Shown piece after piece: positions 7,639 through 23,980 of a stretch of 32,844 nucleotides of DNA (the stretch's first letter is position 1; each line of letters starts with the position of its first letter). Source of the stretch: a virus; IMG/VR virus record IMGVR_UViG_3300047508_000287, positions 1-32,844 of that record. The stretch is one strand, 5' to 3'. Under the pieces are notes generated by a model, which did not search any database, had not been told where the DNA came from, and saw only the letters and a list, made by a program, of their open reading frames with translations. The position numbers were made by a program, and so were the translations under genes.

Positions 7639-7899
7639 ATGACCGACCAAGACAACCCCACCCGCGACGCGCAGCCCGCCATCGACAGCGGCGCCGACGT
7701 CATTCGCGCCGTCAACGGGTGGTGCTTCGAGCGCAGCATGTACGTCGTCGCGATCGGGCGCGTCGCCTACCACGACCGCTACCACTGCCGCGTGCAGCCC
7801 GCGTACGGCGCCGACGTGCTCTGCGTCGAGAGCGACACGCTGTCCGGTCTGCTCGAGCGGCTGAACAGGTGGCACACGACCGGCAAGCCCGATGGCTAA
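7639..7899 (+). CDS. Hypothetical protein, 86 aa
   Basis: ATG 7639 is preceded by AGCAGGAGCAGACACC, a clear ribosome binding site. The same frame is open far upstream, but that part is translated repeat array and is not credible. The product has an acidic N-terminus (MTDQDNPTRDAQ), then a probable beta-alpha domain containing WCFERSMYVVAIGRVAYHDR and ending in a helix (DTLSGLLERLNRW). No family was recognised. It overlaps the minor head gene by eight bases, so it is probably a co-translated head-module accessory protein. Confidence 0.7.
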   Translation: MTDQDNPTRDAQPAIDSGADVIRAVNGWCFERSMYVVAIGRVAYHDRYHCRVQPAYGADVLCVESDTLSGLLERLNRWHTTGKPDG

Positions 7900-10699
7900 G
7901 CGCAAGGTCCTCGCCCACGTCGCCAAGGAAGCGCGCGCGCAGGCCAAGCAGCTCGGGTATCGCTACCGCGTCATCCCGATCTCACGCATCCTCGAGCAGG
8001 CTCCCTGGCAGCCGAGCAAGACGCCGTTCATCGAGTCGGGCATCGCCAAGGGCGCTGCGTTCCCGCCCATCCGCGTCGGCGCGACCGCGCAGGGCTTTGA
8101 CATCGTCGACGGCATCCACCGCGTCGCTGCAGCGCGCGCAGCCGGCTACACGCACATCGCCGCGATCGTCGAGGGCACAGCCGCCGAGGAGCGAGCGGCG
8201 CTCGGGGCGACCGTTCCCAAGCCCAAGGTCAAGCTGCCTCGCCTGCGCGCGCCCGTAGCGCCACGCGTCGGGCCGACGCCGCTCAGGGTCTACCGCGCCG
8301 AGCTCTCGAAGCTGCTCGGCGCGGTAGAGCGCGGCGAGCTCGAGCTCGCCCAGGCGCACGCGCAGCTCGCCAAGAACGTGCTCGCCCAGCTGCCCGAGGC
8401 CGTCAAGGGGCGCCGCTCGACGGCGCAGCTCGAGGCGCTGTTCGACGCCGAGTTCGCCAAGACGTTCCCCGCACGCGTGCGCATCGTGCGCCAGTCCATC
8501 CGCGCTGGCGCCGAGGCAGGCCCCGCTGCCGCAGAGCAGACCTTCCGCGCCGTGCTGGGCGACGACGTGCTCGACGCGCACGTGCGCGCGACCGCGAGCG
8601 CCATGTCGGAAGCTGCAGACCGCATCGCCGGACGCATCACCGTCGACAAGGTCGGGCTGACCAAGCGCATGCGCCGCGTCGACCGCGAGGTCTCGCAGCA
8701 GATGGCAGCCGAGGTGCAGCGCGGCATCAGGCAGCAGCGCGGCATCCTCGGCGCAGCGCGCAAGATCGAGCGCATCGACCCGCGTAGCGTCGAGCTGCCC
8801 AAGTACCTGCAAGAGCTCGAGGCCGCCGCACGCGCAGGCGACAAGGGCGCCGTGCGCGACATCGCGCGCAGCTACGCCGGGCGCATCGCCAAGCTGGGCG
8901 AGGTGCAGACCGACAACACGTTCATCGCGAGCAAGTACTCGCTCAAGAGCGCCACCAAGAAGTTCGTCGCCGAGGTGCAGACCGCCAGCGACGCGCAGCT
9001 CGACAGCGTCGTGAAGCGCTACGTCAAGGACAAGCTCGCCTTCCAGGCCAACCGCATCGCGCGCTCCGAGACGGTGGAGGCGATGCGTCAGAGCTACGTC
9101 AAGCAGACCGCGAACAAGCCCGGCGTGGTGTGCTTCGAGTGGCGGCTGAGCAACCGGCACGAGGCTGCGCTGCACGGCGGCTCGAAGATGGACGTGTGCG
9201 ACATCCTCGCCAACCAGAACGCGTACGGGCTTGGGCCTGGGCGCTATCCGGCAGACGAAGTGCCGGCGATGCCTCACCCGAACTGCTGCCCGGAAGGCTG
9301 CTTAATTGAAACCAGCACGGGCGATATACCCATCGAGAACGTGCGGCCAGGCATGCTCGTGCGCACGCACTCAGGCGCGCTGCGCACCGTGCTGCGTCTC
9401 AGCGCTGTCCCATGGCGCGGCGAGCTCGTCGTAGCGACCATCGGCGACAAGCGTCTCGTAGCGACGCCAGAGCATCCTGTGCTTACGGCTCGGGGCTGGC
9501 AGATCGCGGAGCAGCTTCAGCCAGGTGACCGGGTCTTTACTCGGGTCGACGCGCAGCACGCGCCAGCCGACCGCGTCGAGGTACCTCTCCTTGGCCATGT
9601 CGGCGATGCGCTTGCGTCCGCCACGATGCCAGTCACCCGGGTCGACCTCGACGGCGACCAGCAGCTTGTGAATGCCGGCGTCGATGTTGTACTTGCCGAC
9701 AGCAAACTGGCTGACCGCAGTGTACCCGTCTGCCGTCAGCGCAGCGAGCACGCGCGCTTCGTGAGCAGTCGGGACGGCGCGCAGCTCCTTGGTGTGAGCG
9801 CGCGCGAACAGAGACTGGAACGTGTCGCGACTTCCGCGTCGGGCAGCCTGCGCAGCAGTGGCCATCGCCTTGCGCTTGGCAGGCGAGCGTCGAGCGTTGG
9901 CCAAGAACTGCTGCTCAGACATCGTCCGCTTCTCAACGCCGAGCTGCTTGAGCGCAAGGTCGACCATGGGGCGACCTACGCGGAGCAGCTTGGCAATAGC
10001 GTCCACGCTCAAGCGCTTGCCGACGTAGAGTTGAGCGATGTGTCGATAGCGCGACTCCCGCTCGCGCTTGATGCGGCAGAGTGGATTGGGTGGCTTCTTG
10101 GGCTTGGGCGGCAGACGCGCAACGTAGTTCGCGCGCTGCTCAGCAAGCGTACGCAGCCGGACGCCGGCCTTGCGCAAGCGCGCTTGGATCGTCATGCCGC
10201 TTGTGCTGAAACGTTTCCCAATCTCGAGGGCCGACAGTCGCTCGTCCACGTAGAGCCGAACGACCTCGGCGTCATCGAGGATCACGAACCTGCGGTCGTA
10301 TGCCACGCGTCTGTACACTTCTCGCTCTCCACTGTGACGGCACTCGAGCGCGTCGCCTACGACGGCCCAGTGCACAACTTTGCTGTCGACGTCGACGAGT
10401 CCTACGTCGTCGATGGCGTTGTAGCACATAACTGCTTGTGCACAGTGCATGCGGTCATAGATCGGGATGCCTTCTCGCGCCCCGACGACGACGACGGCCA
10501 GGTCCCCGAGGACATGCAGGACCACGAGTCGCCCGACGCGGCGGGCTGGCTCGCCGCGAACCCGGACAAGGCGCGCGCCATCCTCGGTCCGACGCGGCAC
10601 GCGCTGCTCGAGAAGGGCGCGACGGTGCTCGAGCCGACCGGGCAGCCCAAGCGTGTAGGCGACCTGCTCAAGGGCAGCGCGAGAAAGGCGGCGCCGTGA
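7892..10699 (+). CDS. Minor head protein: ParB-like domain, Mu F-like domain, interrupted by an intein
   Basis: The precursor has 935 residues. Residues about 25-95 resemble a ParB/Srx-type N-terminal domain: VIPISRI, then PPIRVG, then IVDGIHRVAAARAAGY with the DGxHR motif at 73-77. A long helical region follows. A Mu F-type head morphogenesis domain runs from about residue 385 (RANRIARSETVEAMRQ) to a PHPNC motif, where it is split. After removing residues 465-847 the halves join as PHPN-CLCTV, the expected HPNCxCT motif of this family, leaving a 552-residue mature protein. Mu F-like proteins are minor head components made near the portal. ATG 7892 overlaps the preceding gene. The ParB-like fusion is unusual. 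Confidence 0.9.
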   Translation: MAKRKVLAHVAKEARAQAKQLGYRYRVIPISRILEQAPWQPSKTPFIESGIAKGAAFPPIRVGATAQGFDIVDGIHRVAAARAAGYTHIAAIVEGTAAEERAALGATVPKPKVKLPRLRAPVAPRVGPTPLRVYRAELSKLLGAVERGELELAQAHAQLAKNVLAQLPEAVKGRRSTAQLEALFDAEFAKTFPARVRIVRQSIRAGAEAGPAAAEQTFRAVLGDDVLDAHVRATASAMSEAADRIAGRITVDKVGLTKRMRRVDREVSQQMAAEVQRGIRQQRGILGAARKIERIDPRSVELPKYLQELEAAARAGDKGAVRDIARSYAGRIAKLGEVQTDNTFIASKYSLKSATKKFVAEVQTASDAQLDSVVKRYVKDKLAFQANRIARSETVEAMRQSYVKQTANKPGVVCFEWRLSNRHEAALHGGSKMDVCDILANQNAYGLGPGRYPADEVPAMPHPNCCPEGCLIETSTGDIPIENVRPGMLVRTHSGALRTVLRLSAVPWRGELVVATIGDKRLVATPEHPVLTARGWQIAEQLQPGDRVFTRVDAQHAPADRVEVPLLGHVGDALASATMPVTRVDLDGDQQLVNAGVDVVLADSKLADRSVPVCRQRSEHARFVSSRDGAQLLGVSAREQRLERVATSASGSLRSSGHRLALGRRASSVGQELLLRHRPLLNAELLERKVDHGATYAEQLGNSVHAQALADVELSDVSIARLPLALDAAEWIGWLLGLGRQTRNVVRALLSKRTQPDAGLAQARLDRHAACAETFPNLEGRQSLVHVEPNDLGVIEDHEPAVVCHASVHFSLSTVTALERVAYDGPVHNFAVDVDESYVVDGVVAHNCLCTVHAVIDRDAFSRPDDDDGQVPEDMQDHESPDAAGWLAANPDKARAILGPTRHALLEKGATVLEPTGQPKRVGDLLKGSARKAAP
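9284..10432 (+). mobile_element. Intein in the minor head protein (383 aa)
   Basis: The intein begins at C465 (CCPEGCLIETSTGDIPIENV, block A) and ends at H846-N847 before C848 (block G, VVAHN|C). Block B carries T525-x-x-H528 (ATPEHPVLTARGW, then LQPGD). Block F is AYDGPVHNFAVDVDESYVV. All residues needed for Cys-type splicing are visible. Between about residues 560 and 808 the sense translation is odd, low in aromatic residues, and shows no LAGLIDADG or HNH motif; the other strand of this stretch encodes an endonuclease. Early codons such as TTA, ATT, GAA and ATA differ from the surrounding gene, suggesting acquisition. Confidence 0.92.
9371..10318 (-). CDS. Putative homing endonuclease (HTH plus Vsr/EDxHD-like nuclease) nested antisense in the intein
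   Basis: A minus-strand frame starts at GTG (10318-10316) behind GGAGAGCGAGAA, eight bases from GGAG, and ends at TGA 9373-9371: 315 residues. The frame is open further upstream, but that part is only the antisense of the intein C-block and extein. Residues 16-55 and 91-130 look like two helix-turn-helix units (LSALEIGKRFSTSGMTIQAR; LSVDAIAKLLRVGRPMVDLA). Residues 185-260 fit a Vsr/DUF559-like nuclease: E187, D213 (KYNIDAG), VEVDPGDWH with H231, D240, and GWRVLRV. This matches the EDxHD type of homing nuclease (I-Bth0305I-like). Its last 55 residues run antisense over splicing block B. Confidence 0.8.
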   Translation of the reverse strand: MYRRVAYDRRFVILDDAEVVRLYVDERLSALEIGKRFSTSGMTIQARLRKAGVRLRTLAEQRANYVARLPPKPKKPPNPLCRIKRERESRYRHIAQLYVGKRLSVDAIAKLLRVGRPMVDLALKQLGVEKRTMSEQQFLANARRSPAKRKAMATAAQAARRGSRDTFQSLFARAHTKELRAVPTAHEARVLAALTADGYTAVSQFAVGKYNIDAGIHKLLVAVEVDPGDWHRGGRKRIADMAKERYLDAVGWRVLRVDPSKDPVTWLKLLRDLPAPSRKHRMLWRRYETLVADGRYDELAAPWDSAETQHGAQRA

Positions 10700-10869
10700 C
10701 GCTGCTCGCGCTCGACCTGCTGGTCGGCGTGCTCATCGTCTGGGGCCACCTGCACGTCGAGTCGCGCTACTGGCCGGCCGTCGCCCTGTTCTGGGCGCTC
10801 GAGTGCGCCGTCGACGCCTGGGCGTACTGGGCGACCTGTGCTCGAACGGCACGGCAAAAGCGGAAGTAG
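10696..10869 (+). CDS. 57-aa membrane protein
   Basis: GTG 10696 overlaps the stop of the minor head gene (GTGA). The same frame is open upstream, but only as a shadow of that gene. The product has two hydrophobic segments, about residues 3-20 (LLALDLLVGVLIVWGHLHV) and 27-47 (PAVALFWALECAVDAWAYW), and a basic tail (ARTARQKRK). The charge pattern suggests a two-span protein with both ends in the cytoplasm. It ends the head-assembly operon before the repeat and promoter region. Function unknown; holin-like by shape only. Confidence 0.6.
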   Translation: MTLLALDLLVGVLIVWGHLHVESRYWPAVALFWALECAVDAWAYWATCARTARQKRK

Positions 10870-10878
10870 CGCCCGCCA

Positions 10879-10920
10879 GCGCCCGGAATCCGCTTTCCGG
10901 CGCCCGGAATCCGCTTTCCG
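10879..10920 (+). repeat. Perfect tandem repeat, 2 x 21 bp, with hairpin potential
   Basis: GCGCCCGGAATCCGCTTTCC plus a final G occurs twice back to back (10879-10899, 10900-10920). Each copy contains CGGAA-TCCGCT-TTCCG, a 5-bp stem with a 6-base loop; the first extends to CCGGAA/TTCCGG. It lies ten bases after a stop codon and about 35 bases before a promoter-like element. It could be a transcription boundary or a protein-binding site; there is no T tract. Confidence 0.7.
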
Positions 10921-10954
10921 CTTGCGCCCGCTGCGAACTGCCCGCGCGCACGCC

Positions 10955-10997
10955 GCGCCACGTCGCACGCGAGATACCTGCGCGGGGCTTGTTATTG
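10955..10997 (+). promoter_or_regulatory. Conserved intergenic element, copy A (candidate late promoter)
   Basis: A 43-base element beginning GCGCCACGTCGCACGCGAGA and ending GGGGCTTGTTATTG is repeated almost exactly at 31833-31876. Both copies lie in non-coding gaps upstream of structural genes, here 119 bases before the scaffold ATG. The TGTTATTG core resembles an extended -10 region. The conserved 5' part could be an activator site or phage-specific -35 region. The element is seen; its promoter role is inferred. The remaining leader to 11115 contains short hairpins such as CCCACCCGTGGG. Confidence 0.5.
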
Positions 10998-11115
10998 CTC
11001 GCTCGGGGCGCTGTGAGAGCATCCGCGCCAGCGCTGGCAGCTCCCACCCGTGGGCTGCCGAGAGCGCGTGTTGCGACGGGGAACACCGGCTCTGCCGGGG
11101 AGACGAGAGACCACC

Positions 11116-13304: not shown

Positions 13305-13327
13305 GCTGCGCGCGTGCGTGGCGCAGC
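13305..13327 (+). other. Hairpin after the capsid gene
   Basis: GCTGCGC and GCGCAGC form a 7-bp stem around a nine-base loop, 13 bases after the capsid stop. No T tract follows, so it is not a classic intrinsic terminator. It could protect the abundant capsid mRNA or reduce read-through. Confidence 0.35.
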
Positions 13328-13340
13328 TCGGAGCTCGACC

Positions 13341-14360
13341 ATGGGACTAGCGCTAGACGACGTGCCGTATGAGCCAGCGACCGAGTACACCGATCGCTGG
13401 GTGTTCGCGCTCAGCGACACGCTCGAGGGCGAGCACGGCGGCACGTTCTTCGAGGCAGGCGTAGCGACGCGCCCGGTCGACGTGCGCGGCCTGCGTAAGT
13501 TCATCTGCGCGCACGTCGTGCTCGGCGCGCTGCGCGTCGAGGGCGCGCCGCTCGAGCTCGGCGACACCAGCAAGCTCGTGGGCGATGGTGGCGAGGAGGG
13601 CGAGGGCGAAGGCGAGACCGACCCGGACGCGCCCACGGGCGGCACGCTGCCCGCACCCGAGGGCGGCACGCTGCCCACGCAGCCGCGCCCTGAGCGCCCG
13701 CCAGGCGGCTCGACGCTGCCCGAGTCGCCTGCGCCGGACAACGAGCTGCCGCGCCCAGGGCTGCCGCCCATCGGCGTGACGCTCCCGGAAGGGCCGCGCC
13801 CTGGCAACGAGCTGCCGCGCCCTGAGCTGCCCGACGAGCTTCCGCCTGTCGGCGTCAACCTGCCGACGCGCCCTGGCGTCGACAACGAGCTGCCTGGCGA
13901 GCAGCCCGGCATCGACAACACGCTGCCGCCTGAGCGTCCGCCCATCGGCTCGACGCTTCCCGAGGGGCCTGGCCCCGACAACACGCTGCCGCGTCCCGAG
14001 CTGCCCGACGAGCTGCCGCCTGTCGGCGTGACGCTGCCTGAGCGCCCCGAGGGCGGGCACCTGCCGGCGATTCCCGAGGCTGGGCAGGAGCTGCCCGACC
14101 CCGAGCCCATCCCGGACAACGAGCTGCCAGGCGAGCGCCCGCCTGTCGGCACGACGCTGCCCACGCGCCCCGAGGGCGGCACGCTTCCCGAGCTCCCAGA
14201 AGGCGGCCACGAGCTGCCGGCGCCCGAGCCCGAGCTCGCTCGACTGCGCGAGCAGGAGCGCGCCCGCGAGCGCGAGCGTCGGCGCGAGCTCGAGAAGCCC
14301 GTTCCGCCGCCACACACGCCCAGCTGGAGCGAGAAGCTCAAGGGCAAGAAGGGCAAGTGA
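13341..14360 (+). CDS. Protein with small N-terminal domain and long proline-rich repeats
   Basis: A 339-residue protein with ATG 13341 after GGAGCTCGACC. Residues 1-75 form a compact domain of unknown family with an aromatic/acidic start (YEPATEYTDRWVFALSD). Residues about 95-300 are imperfect repeats of 20-25 residues built on NELPRPELP, PPIGVTLPEGP and PTRPGVDNELP. The C-terminus is a charged helix (ARLREQERARERERRRELEK) and a Lys-rich tail. Nearly identical repeats occur in the gene at 15859. The repeats should be extended and disordered or polyproline-II-like, perhaps exposed on the virion. It lies between capsid and neck genes; the function is unknown. Confidence 0.75.
   Translation: MGLALDDVPYEPATEYTDRWVFALSDTLEGEHGGTFFEAGVATRPVDVRGLRKFICAHVVLGALRVEGAPLELGDTSKLVGDGGEEGEGEGETDPDAPTGGTLPAPEGGTLPTQPRPERPPGGSTLPESPAPDNELPRPGLPPIGVTLPEGPRPGNELPRPELPDELPPVGVNLPTRPGVDNELPGEQPGIDNTLPPERPPIGSTLPEGPGPDNTLPRPELPDELPPVGVTLPERPEGGHLPAIPEAGQELPDPEPIPDNELPGERPPVGTTLPTRPEGGTLPELPEGGHELPAPEPELARLREQERARERERRRELEKPVPPPHTPSWSEKLKGKKGK
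13641..14230 (+). repeat. Proline-rich coding repeats (also in 16120-16490)
   Basis: In-frame imperfect repeats of about 60-75 bases encode NELP, GVTLP and RPG units. A block of about 100 bases around 13730-13830 is almost identical to 16225-16325 in the gene before the sheath, so the two tracts are related by duplication or gene conversion. Confidence 0.8.
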
Positions 14361-15158: not shown

Positions 15159-15866
15159 GTGGCCGATAACGCGCTCGACGTCATCCCCGACCCACTCGTC
15201 ACGCCCATCCTGGCGCTGCTCTACGACGCCATCAACGCCGACCTCGCGATCGACATGGCCGCAGCTGGCGTGCCTGTCGAGAACGCCGTCAGCACGACGT
15301 CGCACGTGCCGTTCACACTGACCATGGTCGGCGCGGGCGCGCTGCCGGCGCTGCACTGCTATCGCGTCCGGTCGCGCTCGAGCCAGCAGACCGTGCAGTG
15401 GGTCAATCACACGAGCACGCTGCAGTTCGTGTACGCGACGCCGGCCGCGGGGCGCGAGCAGCTCGACGTGCGCTGGCCGCTGCTCGACCGCGTCTGGCAC
15501 GCGATGCTGCGCGCGCTCAAGCGCGGCTACCACCCGGCGCACGCGGACGGCGGCGACGTGCTGCTCGAGGCGGGCGTCGTGCGCATCGACCTGTCGACCG
15601 CCATCAAGCGCGAGGCGTTCATCGAGGCAGGTCAGCAGACCTTCCCCGGCTTCGTGGCGGAGCTCGACGTGGTCTGGCGCGATGCGAACGACATCGACCA
15701 GGGCCCGTTCTACCCGGCGCTGAGCTTCGACGCGCTGCTCTTCACCGATCGCCCCGTCGACACGGAGACCGAGGCCGACGTGCACGCGCGCGCCGTGCTG
15801 CCTGCGGGCATACCGCCCGGAAAAGACTTCCCACCACCTGACGACTGGAGTCTCGACAATGACTGA
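15159..15866 (+). CDS. Probable tail terminator/neck protein
   Basis: A 235-residue protein starting at GTG 15159 with a strong ribosome binding site (GGAGGTGACCC). The middle has LPALHCYRVRSRSSQQTV, then a beta strand and a long helix (WPLLDRVWHAMLRALKRGYHP), an arrangement seen in phage tail terminator proteins, which cap the tail tube and join it to the head. It stands in the expected place just before the tail genes. The C-terminus is proline-rich (AGIPPGKDFPPPDDW). Family assignment is by pattern and position only. Confidence 0.55.
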   Translation: MADNALDVIPDPLVTPILALLYDAINADLAIDMAAAGVPVENAVSTTSHVPFTLTMVGAGALPALHCYRVRSRSSQQTVQWVNHTSTLQFVYATPAAGREQLDVRWPLLDRVWHAMLRALKRGYHPAHADGGDVLLEAGVVRIDLSTAIKREAFIEAGQQTFPGFVAELDVVWRDANDIDQGPFYPALSFDALLFTDRPVDTETEADVHARAVLPAGIPPGKDFPPPDDWSLDND

Positions 15867-16500
15867 CACGCTTCGAGTCCGCGCCGTCGAAGGGCGCTTG
15901 CTGCAGTGGGAGGGCGACGCGCATCGCGGCTACGTCGGCTGGTCGACCGCGCCTGCGGGCGAGGCGTACGACCACGAGATCGACGGCGTCGTGAAGCTGT
16001 CGATGAGCGAGGCGCCCGTCGACGTGCCCAACACGATCTACTACCGCAAGGCGCTGTCGTGCGGCGACCTCGACGACGCCACGGGCGAGGCGCTGCCTGG
16101 CCCCGAGCCCGAGCCCGACCCGGACGAGGAGCGCCCCATCGGCGGCACGCTGCCGACGCCCGGCATCGACAACGAGCTGCCGCCCGAGCGTCCGCCCATC
16201 GGCTCGACGCTGCCCGAGGGGCCTGCGCCCGACAACGAGCTGCCGCGCCCTGGCCTGCCGCCCATCGGCGTGACGCTGCCGGAAGGGCCGCGCCCCGGCA
16301 ACGAGCTGCCGCGCCCTGAGCTGCCGCCAGGGAACACCACGCTGCCCGAGAGTCCTGGCCCCGACAACGAGCTGCCTTACCCCGAGCTGCCCGAGGAGCT
16401 GCCGCCCATCGGCGTCAACCTGCCGACGCGCCCCGGCATCGACAACGAGCTGCCCCCCGAGCCGCCGCCCGCGTCTGACGACGCAGAACTGGAGCGTTGA
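15859..16500 (+). CDS. DUF2635-like (Mu gp38-position) protein with proline-rich repeats
   Basis: A 213-residue protein that overlaps the preceding gene by eight bases. Residues 1-75 resemble DUF2635, the small family encoded by Mu gene 38: LRVRAVEGRLLQWEG near the start and a VDVPNTIYYRKALSCGDL end. It sits directly upstream of the sheath, as gp38 does in Mu. The rest (about 90-205) is a proline-rich repeat tract of NELPRPELP and PPIGVTLPEGP units, almost identical to part of the gene at 13341. Mu gp38 has no such tail. The role is unknown; tail assembly is likely from context. Confidence 0.7.
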   Translation: MTDTLRVRAVEGRLLQWEGDAHRGYVGWSTAPAGEAYDHEIDGVVKLSMSEAPVDVPNTIYYRKALSCGDLDDATGEALPGPEPEPDPDEERPIGGTLPTPGIDNELPPERPPIGSTLPEGPAPDNELPRPGLPPIGVTLPEGPRPGNELPRPELPPGNTTLPESPGPDNELPYPELPEELPPIGVNLPTRPGIDNELPPEPPPASDDAELER

Positions 16501-21831: not shown

Positions 21832-23324
21832 CCCGCGCAAGCGCGAGCGAGGACCACGCGGAGCTCGAGTGCGAGTCGAGCCTGCTCACCAGCTGGACGA
21901 GCTACTCGTTTCAGAGCGACCTGTTCACGCCTGCCGACGCGTGCCGTCTGAGCATCGGCCTCGGCAGCTCGAGCGCGCGCGACATCCGGCGCACCATCAC
22001 AGAGGCCCAGGCGCTGCTCGCCCCCGGCAAGCTCGTCAAGGTGTACGTCACGGCGGGCGGCAGGCGCGCGCTCCAGGGCGCCTTCCTCATCGACAGCTGC
22101 GAGATTGCCAACGACGCGGACGGCGGCACGCAGATGACGCTGTCGCTACGTGACCGGGCGCTGCAGCTCATCGGCTCGGCAGCCGACCCGAAGCTGTACG
22201 CGGCGCACGACACGCTCGTGTCGGTCGCGCGCAAGGCGGTCAAGCCGTGGGGCATCGAGGTGACGGCCGACCACGTCGCGGCGCGCGACCTCCGCCAGGC
22301 GCGCGTGAGCAAGGACAAGCTCAAGCGCCTGCAGCAAAAGGCGCGCAGCTGGGGCATCCAGCCGAGCCTGATGTCGGAGAAGATCGCCGCGTCCATCGAC
22401 CACGGCACCATCACGTTCGACGACTTCGCGGGCGCGCAGGCCGGGCGCATCGACGACAAGAGTCGCGCGCTGGGCATGGGCACCGTCCCGTTCCCGTACG
22501 CGGGCGCGTACGAGCGCCCCAAGGTCGTGCGCACGGTCGTGCCGCTCAACGCGCCGCTGACTTTCCCGTTTCGCAACGGCATCACGCGCGACGGCAATCT
22601 GATGGTCGTGCACCAGGGCATCCCGTGGTCGGGCGCGACCGGGCTCAGCTCGCTGCAGATCTACCAGCTCAAGGTCAAAGACATCCGGCCGCAGTCGGGC
22701 GAGACGGTCTGGGAGTTTCTCGACCGCAGCGCCAAGCGCAACGGGCTGCTGATGTCAATGACGCCGGACGGCAAGCTGCTCTTCTGCGGGCTGCTCTACG
22801 ACCAGCACCCGAGCTATCACCTGACGCGCCGGGTCGAGGGCGACCGCACGCAGAACAACATCGTCAGCGGCGGCTCGCGCCTCGACATCTCGGACGTGTG
22901 CGGCGACGTCATCGTGTACGGGCGCGTCAAGGGCAAGGACGTCTCGCGCAGCGCGTTCAAGGGCCACGCGGTCTCGACCGCGACCGACCTCGTGCGCGTG
23001 CCGTACGTCAAGACGCTGGTCGTGCACGACAACGCAATCAAGACCCGGGAGGACGCGCAGCACCGCGCCGCGTACGAGCTCGGCAAGTCAAAACAGGGAG
23101 CATTCTGTCTCGAGTACACAATGCGAGGACACTCGGACGGCGGGCTCTTCTATGCACCAGACACAATTGCTCAAGTCAGCGACGAGGTCGCCGGCATCCA
23201 CGGGCCTTACTACATCACAGCGCGCACGTTCACGCGCTCTGCGCGTCAGGGCCCGCAGACATCGCTCAAGCTGGTCCCCCCTGGATCCATTGTGTTGAGC
23301 GCCGTCGGGGAGTTGGCGAGATGA
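21828..23324 (+). CDS. Baseplate hub protein (Mu gpP / late control D-like)
   Basis: A 498-residue protein coupled to the gpN-like gene. It has the hub pattern: an N-terminal barrel (LFTPADACRLSIGLGS), a helical insertion around 130-190, a QIYQLKVKDIRPQSGETVWE FLDR segment followed by GLLMSMTPDGKLLF, and a C-terminal barrel with GPYYITARTFTRS. The hub forms the trimeric centre of the baseplate under the tube. From about 23085 to the end the codons change (AAA, GGA, GCA, ACA, CGA, CCA become common), and the 3' end is antisense-overlapped by an HNH endonuclease frame. The 3' part may have been replaced during homing. Confidence 0.85.
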   Translation: MTRASASEDHAELECESSLLTSWTSYSFQSDLFTPADACRLSIGLGSSSARDIRRTITEAQALLAPGKLVKVYVTAGGRRALQGAFLIDSCEIANDADGGTQMTLSLRDRALQLIGSAADPKLYAAHDTLVSVARKAVKPWGIEVTADHVAARDLRQARVSKDKLKRLQQKARSWGIQPSLMSEKIAASIDHGTITFDDFAGAQAGRIDDKSRALGMGTVPFPYAGAYERPKVVRTVVPLNAPLTFPFRNGITRDGNLMVVHQGIPWSGATGLSSLQIYQLKVKDIRPQSGETVWEFLDRSAKRNGLLMSMTPDGKLLFCGLLYDQHPSYHLTRRVEGDRTQNNIVSGGSRLDISDVCGDVIVYGRVKGKDVSRSAFKGHAVSTATDLVRVPYVKTLVVHDNAIKTREDAQHRAAYELGKSKQGAFCLEYTMRGHSDGGLFYAPDTIAQVSDEVAGIHGPYYITARTFTRSARQGPQTSLKLVPPGSIVLSAVGELAR

Positions 23325-23980
23325 GACCAGTTCCGACCGTTGACGATGTGACAGATCGCCGCCTTGGTGACGCCAAGCTCGCGCGCGAGCTGCGCGAGCA
23401 GACCATGCGGTCGCGGCTTCTTGCCCGCCCTGTCAAAGACGTACAGCACCTGGGCGTTGCTGAGCTTGCTTTGCCCGCTCCGTTCTCCGCGCGCGCAAAG
23501 CTCCGGATGTTTCACGAACGGATGGTTCGCTCCACGGTTTCGACTCTCCGGCTTTGTATGAGTGCCGTTCCGCTTGCCGCGTCGGAGAGCGCCCGCCCCA
23601 GGGCGCGGCCCTCGTGCGACAGTTCCGTGGGCAAGCATGTCGTCAGTGTTGTCTCGGTGCGTGCCCCAGCGGAGATTGTCGGGATGGTTGTTTGTGCGCG
23701 TTCGATCCGGGAAATGGCAGACCATCATCCCGGGCGGCCGAGGACCGACGTTCATCTCGAGAACTATTGCCGCGACAGAGAAGCTGTGTCGTTTGCCGTT
23801 GGCGTCGCTAATGCCGACGCGCAGGTAGCCGTCCCGGTCGAGCCACGGCTGCACAGGCCGCGGGCTATCGCGACGATGCCTGCCCGGCCCTTGCTGTATC
23901 CAGCTCCTGAACTCGCCGAAGCGCGTGCGCTCGTACCCCGGAAAGCCCGGCACCGGTTCCCAAACGGCATCATCGACCAT
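23246..23980 (-). CDS. Free-standing HNH homing endonuclease (NUMOD4-HNH-HTH)
   Basis: A 244-residue minus-strand gene from ATG 23980 to a stop at 23246. Residues 7-27 match a NUMOD4 DNA-binding motif (WEPVPGFPGYERTRFGEFRS). Residues 65-120 are an HNH_3-type nuclease, with the catalytic His 89 in VCHFPD, then TNNHPDNLRWGTHRDN. Residues 168-220 are a helix-turn-helix of the type attached to such enzymes (SKLSNAQVLYVFD, then LARELGVTKAAICHIVNGRN). The real domain ends near residue 221; the last 23 residues run antisense over the hub gene end. Such enzymes nick or cut a specific site and promote copying of their own gene. Phage structural neighbours are all on the opposite strand. Confidence 0.88.
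   Translation of the reverse strand: MVDDAVWEPVPGFPGYERTRFGEFRSWIQQGPGRHRRDSPRPVQPWLDRDGYLRVGISDANGKRHSFSVAAIVLEMNVGPRPPGMMVCHFPDRTRTNNHPDNLRWGTHRDNTDDMLAHGTVARGPRPGAGALRRGKRNGTHTKPESRNRGANHPFVKHPELCARGERSGQSKLSNAQVLYVFDRAGKKPRPHGLLAQLARELGVTKAAICHIVNGRNWSHLANSPTALNTMDPGGTSLSDVCGP

Follow-up and report, generated by a model that had tools for sequence, protein, structure and literature searches.

The window analysed here, the whole 32,844-nucleotide stretch of the viral record IMGVR_UViG_3300047508_000287, contains an intein-interrupted, MuF-type phage head-morphogenesis gene (7892..10699, + strand), whose 935-aa precursor would be reduced to 552 aa by splicing. The gene matched phrog_1657 (head morphogenesis, 1.4e-20), and its intein-bearing relatives matched PF04233 (Phage_Mu_F) or PF06152. 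The intein itself (C465-N847, 383 aa; 9284..10432, +) was delimited by a Hint_2 match from residue 465 (2.8e-8, Pfam scan of the 935-aa precursor), by an alignment of 23 inteins (A4), and by a precise intein-less allele at the related locus L008. Its splicing residues, specifically C465 at the start, T525 and H528 in block B, H846-N847 at the end, and C848 as the first C-extein residue, all lie where an earlier, sequence-only reading of the window had placed them, the lengths of the intein and spliced protein also agree, and the junction after splicing reads HPN-CLCTV in the window sequence. The N-terminal splicing half (intein residues 1-88; 9284..9547, +) holds blocks A and B, the latter as T525-P-E-H528 (9464..9475, +), and the C-terminal half (residues 343-383; 10310..10432, +; w_sense 0.17) ends in HN, followed by C848; in the alignment, C1, H64, G71, and N383 were invariant and T61 nearly so. 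AlphaFold gave a confident Hint fold in the splicing halves only (pLDDT 88-97 over residues 1-90 and ∼84-98 in the C-terminal half), for which the top Foldseek matches were inteins (6bs8, 6rix, and 6qaz; E 2.6e-5 to 8e-5). The sense linker between the halves (residues 90-342; 9551..10309, +) is an open frame, mostly of pLDDT <50, with no family match. As previously claimed, no endonuclease family, including LAGLIDADG or HNH, was detected in the sense frame by the Pfam scan of the precursor, and no group I ribozyme was matched in Rfam up to E 1 within positions 8800-11000. The head gene of the window carries an intein, the splicing of which is predicted from these blocks and the Hint fold.

On the opposite strand, nested within the intein and codon-aligned with the sense frame, lies a homing-endonuclease-like gene of 315 aa with a GTG start (9371..10318, -). 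A Shine-Dalgarno-like GGAGAG (10325..10330, -) precedes the GTG by 6 nt and falls within the C-terminal splicing half, and both motif and start codon are conserved at the related loci L002, L003, L004, and L007; no sigma-70 promoter above chance was found upstream of the gene in promoter scans of the window and phage SE1. Pfam matches of the product were to the MTES_1575 REase family (PF18741, 1.8e-12), DUF559 (5e-5), and the Sigma70_r4 helix-turn-helix (3e-4). The first helix-turn-helix unit (residues 16-50; 10169..10273, -) corresponds to the Sigma70_r4 match and to AlphaFold helices of pLDDT mostly 89-97, and the second (residues 98-125; 9944..10027, -) to weak HTH_23 and GntR matches and to AlphaFold helices; the first is absent in L004, and one unit is lost in L003-L006. 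These are followed by a nuclease core of the Vsr/MTES_1575 type (residues 185-258; 9545..9766, -), in which D213 and E224 are invariant, E187 is nearly so, and H231 is common, not universal (alignments A2 and A3), and by a C-terminal extension (9371..9544, -) opposite the N-terminal splicing half, where the DNA is dual coding.

A PDB sequence search gave no match, and the structural relationship of the antisense protein was found by fold search alone: the best PDB match was I-Bth0305I (3r3p, ranks 1 and 2; probability 1.00), followed among nucleases by the Vsr structures 1cw0 and 1vsr. These models support a nuclease of the I-Bth0305I/Vsr type by fold, in which E187, D213, E224, and H231 are candidates for the EDxHD active-site set, and the Foldseek E-value is modest (1.4e-3), which counts against the assignment. 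The minus-strand product of helix-turn-helix units and nuclease read from the sequence, and its GTG start with ribosome site, were recovered, and its proposed Vsr/EDxHD-like relationship was borne out by the fold.

Since the window genome is 68.6% GC, an open codon-aligned frame on the other strand is often to be expected by default (P ∼0.4-0.55 per gene in the window and close relatives), so the length of an antisense ORF alone proves nothing, and the test of stop avoidance was therefore moved to loci of low and medium GC. Because the frames are codon-aligned, a sense stop arises only from an antisense TTA, CTA, or TCA. None of these occurred in 14,114 codons of nested endonucleases, compared with 12 in a free-standing sibling (L078); in 20 diverged loci, 117.5 blocking codons were expected and none was found, and L039 and L050 were likewise codon-aligned and free of them. 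Nested homologues reach down to GC 0.35-0.46, and the open sense frame at low and medium GC is far from chance. A reading in which high GC opened the antisense ORF by chance, and only the sense intein is real, would agree with the long codon-aligned antisense ORFs of many window genes, but this has a negligible probability given the specific nuclease and helix-turn-helix matches and the low-GC homologues, and is refuted by the purifying selection on the antisense frame described below and by the free-standing sibling, which is annotated as a gene. The reality of the predicted antisense gene rests on its homology, on the pattern of substitutions by codon position, and on relatives of low GC.

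Substitution patterns differed along the intein. In the middle, sense codon position 1, which is the antisense wobble position, varied most (145:57:72 and 99:26:45), whereas at the splicing ends position 3 varied most (28:12:50 and 0:10:30). The corresponding w_anti in the middle was 0.34 (95% interval 0.24-0.46), and w_sense over intein codons 82-216 was 0.89 (0.67-1.24). Cultured Guernseyvirinae provided an independent test, with counts of 974:213:405 in the middle and w_anti of 0.19 (0.13-0.26); their sense middle showed mild constraint (w_sense 0.54), so this region may not be pure filler. In the dual-coding stretch (9371..9544), no class of site diverges freely (0.059/0.033/0.101 per site at sense positions 1/2/3), and w_sense was 0.21 and w_anti 0.33, the latter with an upper bound of 1.01. 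Selection thus splits by strand, with the splicing ends constrained in the sense frame and the middle in the antisense frame, and is not limited to the sense frame. The sense middle might instead be a degenerate in-frame endonuclease of which the antisense similarity is an echo, as the mild constraint in Guernseyvirinae and the conserved sense motifs EDFHGDG and VDVVLAD that many of these inteins have in their middle could suggest; however, these motifs read as the reverse complement of the antisense catalytic strands AVEVFGG and GKYNID, opposite which they lie, the sense middle has neither an endonuclease family nor a confident fold, and its most variable position is 1, not 3, so that this explanation is disfavoured and has next to no probability.

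Many homologues of the antisense protein were found outside this locus. In all 36 related IMG/VR loci, the endonuclease is antisense, codon-aligned, and inside a spanning, intein-bearing sense ORF, and the same arrangement was found in 24 of the 26 phage or plasmid matches that were opened, the two exceptions being one free-standing sibling and one unrelated match; the sense ORF was unbroken in every nested locus opened, unlike the fractured-gene layout of split inteins. The host gene is nearly always of MuF type; the intein of L063 sits in a dCMP-deaminase-type gene. The family occurs in phages of Salmonella, E. coli, Klebsiella, Pseudomonas, Vibrio, Gordonia, Mycobacterium, Helicobacter, and others, and the nested arrangement first proposed for the window alone is thus supported and belongs to a widespread family that includes many cultured phages. 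In Salmonella phages, the reverse gene overlaps almost the whole intein; in UPWr_S2-S5 and KMB36, it was detected by tblastn at the annotated intein locus, and fEg-Eco06, the locus of which was opened, has the same kind of intein in its head/capsid gene. The second, antisense gene has generally been missed by annotators of these phages. The breadth of the family, and the extent of overlap with the N-terminal splicing domain, are beyond what the sequence-only reading could see. The Providencia match L076 was ruled out as an unrelated helix-turn-helix protein, Klebsiella plasmid matches were set aside because their similarity is confined to a short nuclease segment within DUF3320 helicases, and profile scans of genome contigs with the endonuclease alignment, under strict patterns, gave no confirmed relative.

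Several observations bear on mobility. Intein-less alleles exist at the same site in L008 and in L071/Salmonella phage vB_SenTO17, including one with a 94% identical protein. Between L003 and L004, the 5′ extein is 85% identical, the intein 98.9%, and the 3′ extein 100%; this near-identical intein in two head genes diverged by 15% is a recombined one, which argues for recent activity. Endonuclease distance tracks intein distance (rho 0.67, partly built in because the endonuclease C-terminus shares DNA with the N-terminal splicing half) and not extein distance (rho 0.15). An arrangement that is real but inactive, with a fixed intein, a decaying endonuclease, and homing rare or never, would fit the loss of a helix-turn-helix unit in some loci, but is improbable in view of w_anti of 0.19-0.34, catalytic residues invariant across lineages, coexisting empty alleles, and the recombined intein. 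It is also unlikely, if a little less so, that the endonuclease is a head-gene-linked nuclease for marker exclusion of co-infecting phages instead of intein mobility: the targeting of head genes and the free-standing version adjoining an intein-less head gene in phage IME285 would suit such a role, whereas the distances above link the antisense gene to the intein and not to the host gene, and a dCMP-deaminase-type gene has also acquired the intein. The two roles are compatible and not exclusive.

Computation established that both strands code, that they are under separate selection, that an empty allele exists, that the element has passed between phages, and that the family is wide. The best explanation of these findings, with a probability of roughly 0.92, is a two-strand mobile intein with splicing encoded in sense and a homing endonuclease in antisense. 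From this we infer splicing, antisense expression, cleavage, and homing in the following form. A mobile intein would be written on both strands of the same DNA, with the + strand translated as a single head-protein precursor, in which the two Hint halves would fold together, loop out the non-conserved linker, and splice to restore the HPNCLCTV head protein. The - strand, with its own start codon and ribosome site, would encode the I-Bth0305I/Vsr-type homing endonuclease, the helix-turn-helix units of which would bind the intein-less head-gene site for cleavage by the nuclease core, and repair from the intein-bearing copy would insert the element. Selection would remove antisense TTA, CTA, and TCA, keeping the sense frame open. 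It is a more tentative generalisation, with slightly less than an even chance, that a broad class of phage inteins are stable selfish elements coding on both strands, with an overlap that extends into the splicing domain. If true, the antisense position would uncouple the endonuclease from the late expression of the head gene, each part could evolve in the synonymous positions of the other, and a break in the sense frame would lead directly to the split-intein fractured genes already known, so that the two-strand intein suggests a route to split inteins.

The intein itself is already known in some of these phages; no earlier report of the antisense gene was found in the literature covered, which excluded one preprint on non-canonical phage inteins. 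A single DNA segment encodes a protein-splicing element in one direction and, it appears, the enzyme that mobilises it in the other, endonucleases have been missed in most annotations of these phages, and isolates exist for testing splicing, cutting, and homing. Overlapping antisense genes whose selection can be separated are seen here with unusual clarity in a natural system, for which the free-standing sibling serves as a control.

Canonical inteins such as PI-SceI and Mtu RecA contain LAGLIDADG or HNH domains, and the general description of an intein places the endonuclease domain in the splicing protein itself. The window intein shares with them the Hint domain, the block A, B, and G residues, and insertion at a conserved host-protein motif, but its endonuclease has a gene of its own on the minus strand and is not part of the protein that is spliced out. 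In some group I introns, too, the homing endonuclease gene runs antisense to a self-splicing element; however, an intron need not be translatable through that gene, whereas an intein must be, making both strands protein-coding in the window. The EDxHD family, including I-Bth0305I, was reportedly described by Dassa in 2009 with split-intein "fractured genes". EDxHD homing endonucleases are associated with phages (PMC3943268) and resemble the antisense gene in combining a Vsr-like nuclease core with separate DNA-binding units, but the window endonuclease is encoded in reverse within an unbroken intein. Two papers on Salmonella and E. coli phages (PMC8425127, PMC11162368) record inteins of the same kind in the same host gene, there called a minor head or capsid gene, and the passages on the intein in these two papers treat the intein only, leaving an antisense endonuclease unmentioned. 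The ShiLan domain, an HNH endonuclease concealed in a different frame of an insertion in a phage methylase (PMC11855218), is similar in having a GTG start and in that the host frame stays open through the insertion that hides it; it is, however, on the same strand, of HNH type, and without a splicing domain, whereas the window gene runs antisense within a true intein and is of Vsr type.

The head-morphogenesis precursor of the window (7892-10699, + strand; 935 aa; phrog_1657, 1.4e-20) is interrupted by an intein at 9284-10432 on the same strand (Pfam Hint_2, 2.8e-8). The splicing residues named in the sequence-only reading, specifically C465, T525xxH528, HN847, and C848, were all located in this open reading frame, and removal of the 383 intein residues would leave the 552-aa product proposed there, with the junction HPN-CLCTV. 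As also proposed, Pfam reported no endonuclease family in the sense frame of the precursor. The confident part of the AlphaFold model of the sense intein was limited to residues 1-90 and 343-383, corresponding to the Hint domain, and its top fold matches were inteins (E 2.6e-5); the intervening stretch, residues 92-342, was mostly below pLDDT 50 and lies nearly entirely opposite the endonuclease gene. The start of the head protein (7892-8200) contained a weak ParB-like segment (phrog_3264, 2e-4; PF02195, 0.07) ahead of the MuF portion, to which it is fused.

The antisense endonuclease-like gene (9371-10318, - strand; 315 aa) has the predicted GTG start and Shine-Dalgarno sequence (GGAGAG, 6-nt spacer), and no sigma-70 promoter stood out upstream of the gene in the window or in phage SE1. 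Its codons are the exact reverse complements of the sense codons. The product matched MTES_1575 REase (1.8e-12), DUF559, and Sigma70_r4 HTH families, and its AlphaFold model, built with 26 aligned sequences (mean pLDDT 80; final 43 residues not confident), showed HTH units together with a nuclease core of alpha/beta type. The top PDB fold match was the catalytic domain of the homing endonuclease I-Bth0305I (3r3p, E 1.4e-3, prob 1.00), followed among nucleases by Vsr (1cw0, 1vsr), bearing out the suggested HTH and Vsr-like composition. Elsewhere in the window, a free-standing HNH endonuclease gene (23246-23980, - strand; PF13392, 1.2e-7) lies among tail genes on the opposite strand, and two proteins (13314-14360 and 15859-16500) carry proline-rich GxTLPExP-type repeats, the first of these with no Pfam match.

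Many homologous inteins with the same antisense gene were recovered. A scan with the window protein yielded six IMG/VR relatives, all antisense within the same intein, and an alignment scan yielded 28 further loci (25-37% identity; GC 0.35-0.69), in all 28 of which the endonuclease was antisense in a spanning sense open reading frame that also encodes a block-B-like motif; the intein ends were clear in most. The IMG/VR set, 36 loci including near-duplicates, also contains L054 and L055, with the same nested arrangement. The sense inteins of two related loci, L025 and L026, apparently lack an N-terminal cysteine (HPRGK-AELPG...) and are possibly of the alanine-1 type; at another, L023, the 989-aa sense protein, a head protein (Phage_min_cap2), also matched in its C-terminal part the papain-fold glutamine-deamidase toxin family PF15644 (1.4e-7). 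Searches of phage records by tblastn returned 112-130 matching records each, nearly always in genes labeled head morphogenesis, MuF-like minor capsid, minor head protein, or hypothetical. Among the records inspected for the endonuclease match (25 phage and one plasmid), the nested antisense arrangement was present in 23 of the phage records, including that of a Helicobacter prophage, and in the plasmid, from Ca. Promineifilum breve. The two exceptions were L076, rejected as an unrelated HTH protein match, and Acinetobacter phage IME285 (L078), in which a free-standing sibling endonuclease (455-1348) is convergent with an intein-less MuF head gene and touches its 3′ end. Hosts include Salmonella, E. 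coli, Pantoea, Klebsiella, Pseudomonas aeruginosa, Vibrio, Idiomarinaceae, Aggregatibacter/Haemophilus, Gordonia, and Mycobacterium; the Gordonia phages are of a kind that a phage-intein survey would cover. The two frames were codon-aligned at all nested loci. In Virus Rctr197k (L063), the family intein and its antisense endonuclease reside in a dCMP/cytidine deaminase gene (PF00383; 616-1968) rather than a head gene, and its "head morphogenesis" annotation probably derives from intein homology.

A codon-aligned opposite frame is often open by default in GC-rich genomes such as that of the window, which does not hold for genomes of lower GC. Across 20 mutually diverged loci, with splicing-domain overlaps left out, local codon usage predicted 117.5 TTA, CTA, or TCA codons, against an observed count of zero (summed log10 P -61.9, with codons taken as independent). 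The 51 nested loci, some of them near-duplicates, contained none in 14,114 codons, including 2,001 Leu and Ser codons; the free-standing sibling in IME285 contained 12 among 39 Leu and Ser codons. The open sense frame opposite the endonuclease is under selection.

Selection also acts on the antisense frame. Among close relatives, differences in the intein middle were most frequent at sense position 1, the antisense wobble position (positions 1:2:3, 145:57:72 and 99:26:45), and those in the splicing ends at position 3 (28:12:50 and 0:10:30). Selection ratios were obtained by classifying and counting changes according to their consequence in each of the two frames, with non-independent pair counts and 95% intervals from resampled codons. 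For the window group, the middle (intein codons 82-216, without the variable HTH half) gave w_anti 0.34 (0.24-0.46) and w_sense 0.89 (0.67-1.24), and the splicing ends gave w_sense 0.25 and 0.17; in the segment that encodes the N-terminal splicing half on one strand and the end of the endonuclease on the other, both ratios were low (w_sense 0.21, w_anti 0.33; upper bounds 0.53 and 1.01). In Guernseyvirinae (seven of nine fetched sequences used), the endonuclease gene spans nearly the whole 272-aa intein, with its stop at the second intein codon; the middle (974:213:405) gave w_anti 0.19 (0.13-0.26) and w_sense 0.54 (0.37-0.77), and the C-terminal splicing half w_sense 0.05.

Intein-less alleles with precise junctions were found in the related locus L008 (94% amino acid identity across the joined region) and, with flanks at 92-93%, in phages including Salmonella phage vB_SenTO17; L071 was inspected as an intein-less control. 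At one contig end (L014, IMGVR_UViG_3300047092_000080, 1-112), the sequence stops inside the C-terminal half of the intein and its 3′ flank is identical to L008 over the stretch shown, perhaps reflecting presence/absence variation within one population. Between two loci, L003 and L004, the inteins were 98.9% identical, with all differences within the first 100 bp, the 3′ exteins 100% identical, and the 5′ exteins 15% different, the pattern that homing accompanied by flank conversion, or some other recombination, should leave. Across 37 loci, endonuclease distances tracked intein distances (rho 0.67, inflated in part by the stretch of DNA that both have in common at one end) and not extein distances (0.15). 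The element probably moves by a two-strand homing mechanism, in which translation of the head precursor would run straight across the strand complementary to the endonuclease gene and the Hint halves would splice, discarding the translated linker. The endonuclease, made from a separate antisense transcript, would bind the empty head-gene site through its HTH units and cut there, and repair would copy the element in.

The observation of an intein with an antisense endonuclease-like gene is confirmed, and its interpretation as a two-strand selfish element is supported and enlarged from one locus to a widespread family. Two papers had already reported the sense intein from capsid genes of Salmonella and E. 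coli phages (PMC8425127, PMC11162368). Small hypothetical open reading frames are listed at this locus in the tables of three Salmonella phages. In Salmonella phage PK1 (2902-3711), the antisense open reading frame is annotated as hypothetical protein XRA40086.1; most other inspected records leave it unannotated. No account of an antisense endonuclease inside an intein was found in the literature surveyed, the coverage of which was incomplete. A mobile intein with a homing endonuclease is of a known kind; the novelty, as far as checked, is the two-strand architecture, present across a widespread family. Among published ideas, the ShiLan domain (PMC11855218) comes closest: there, an HNH gene lies out-of-frame on the same strand, within an insertion that has no splicing domain.
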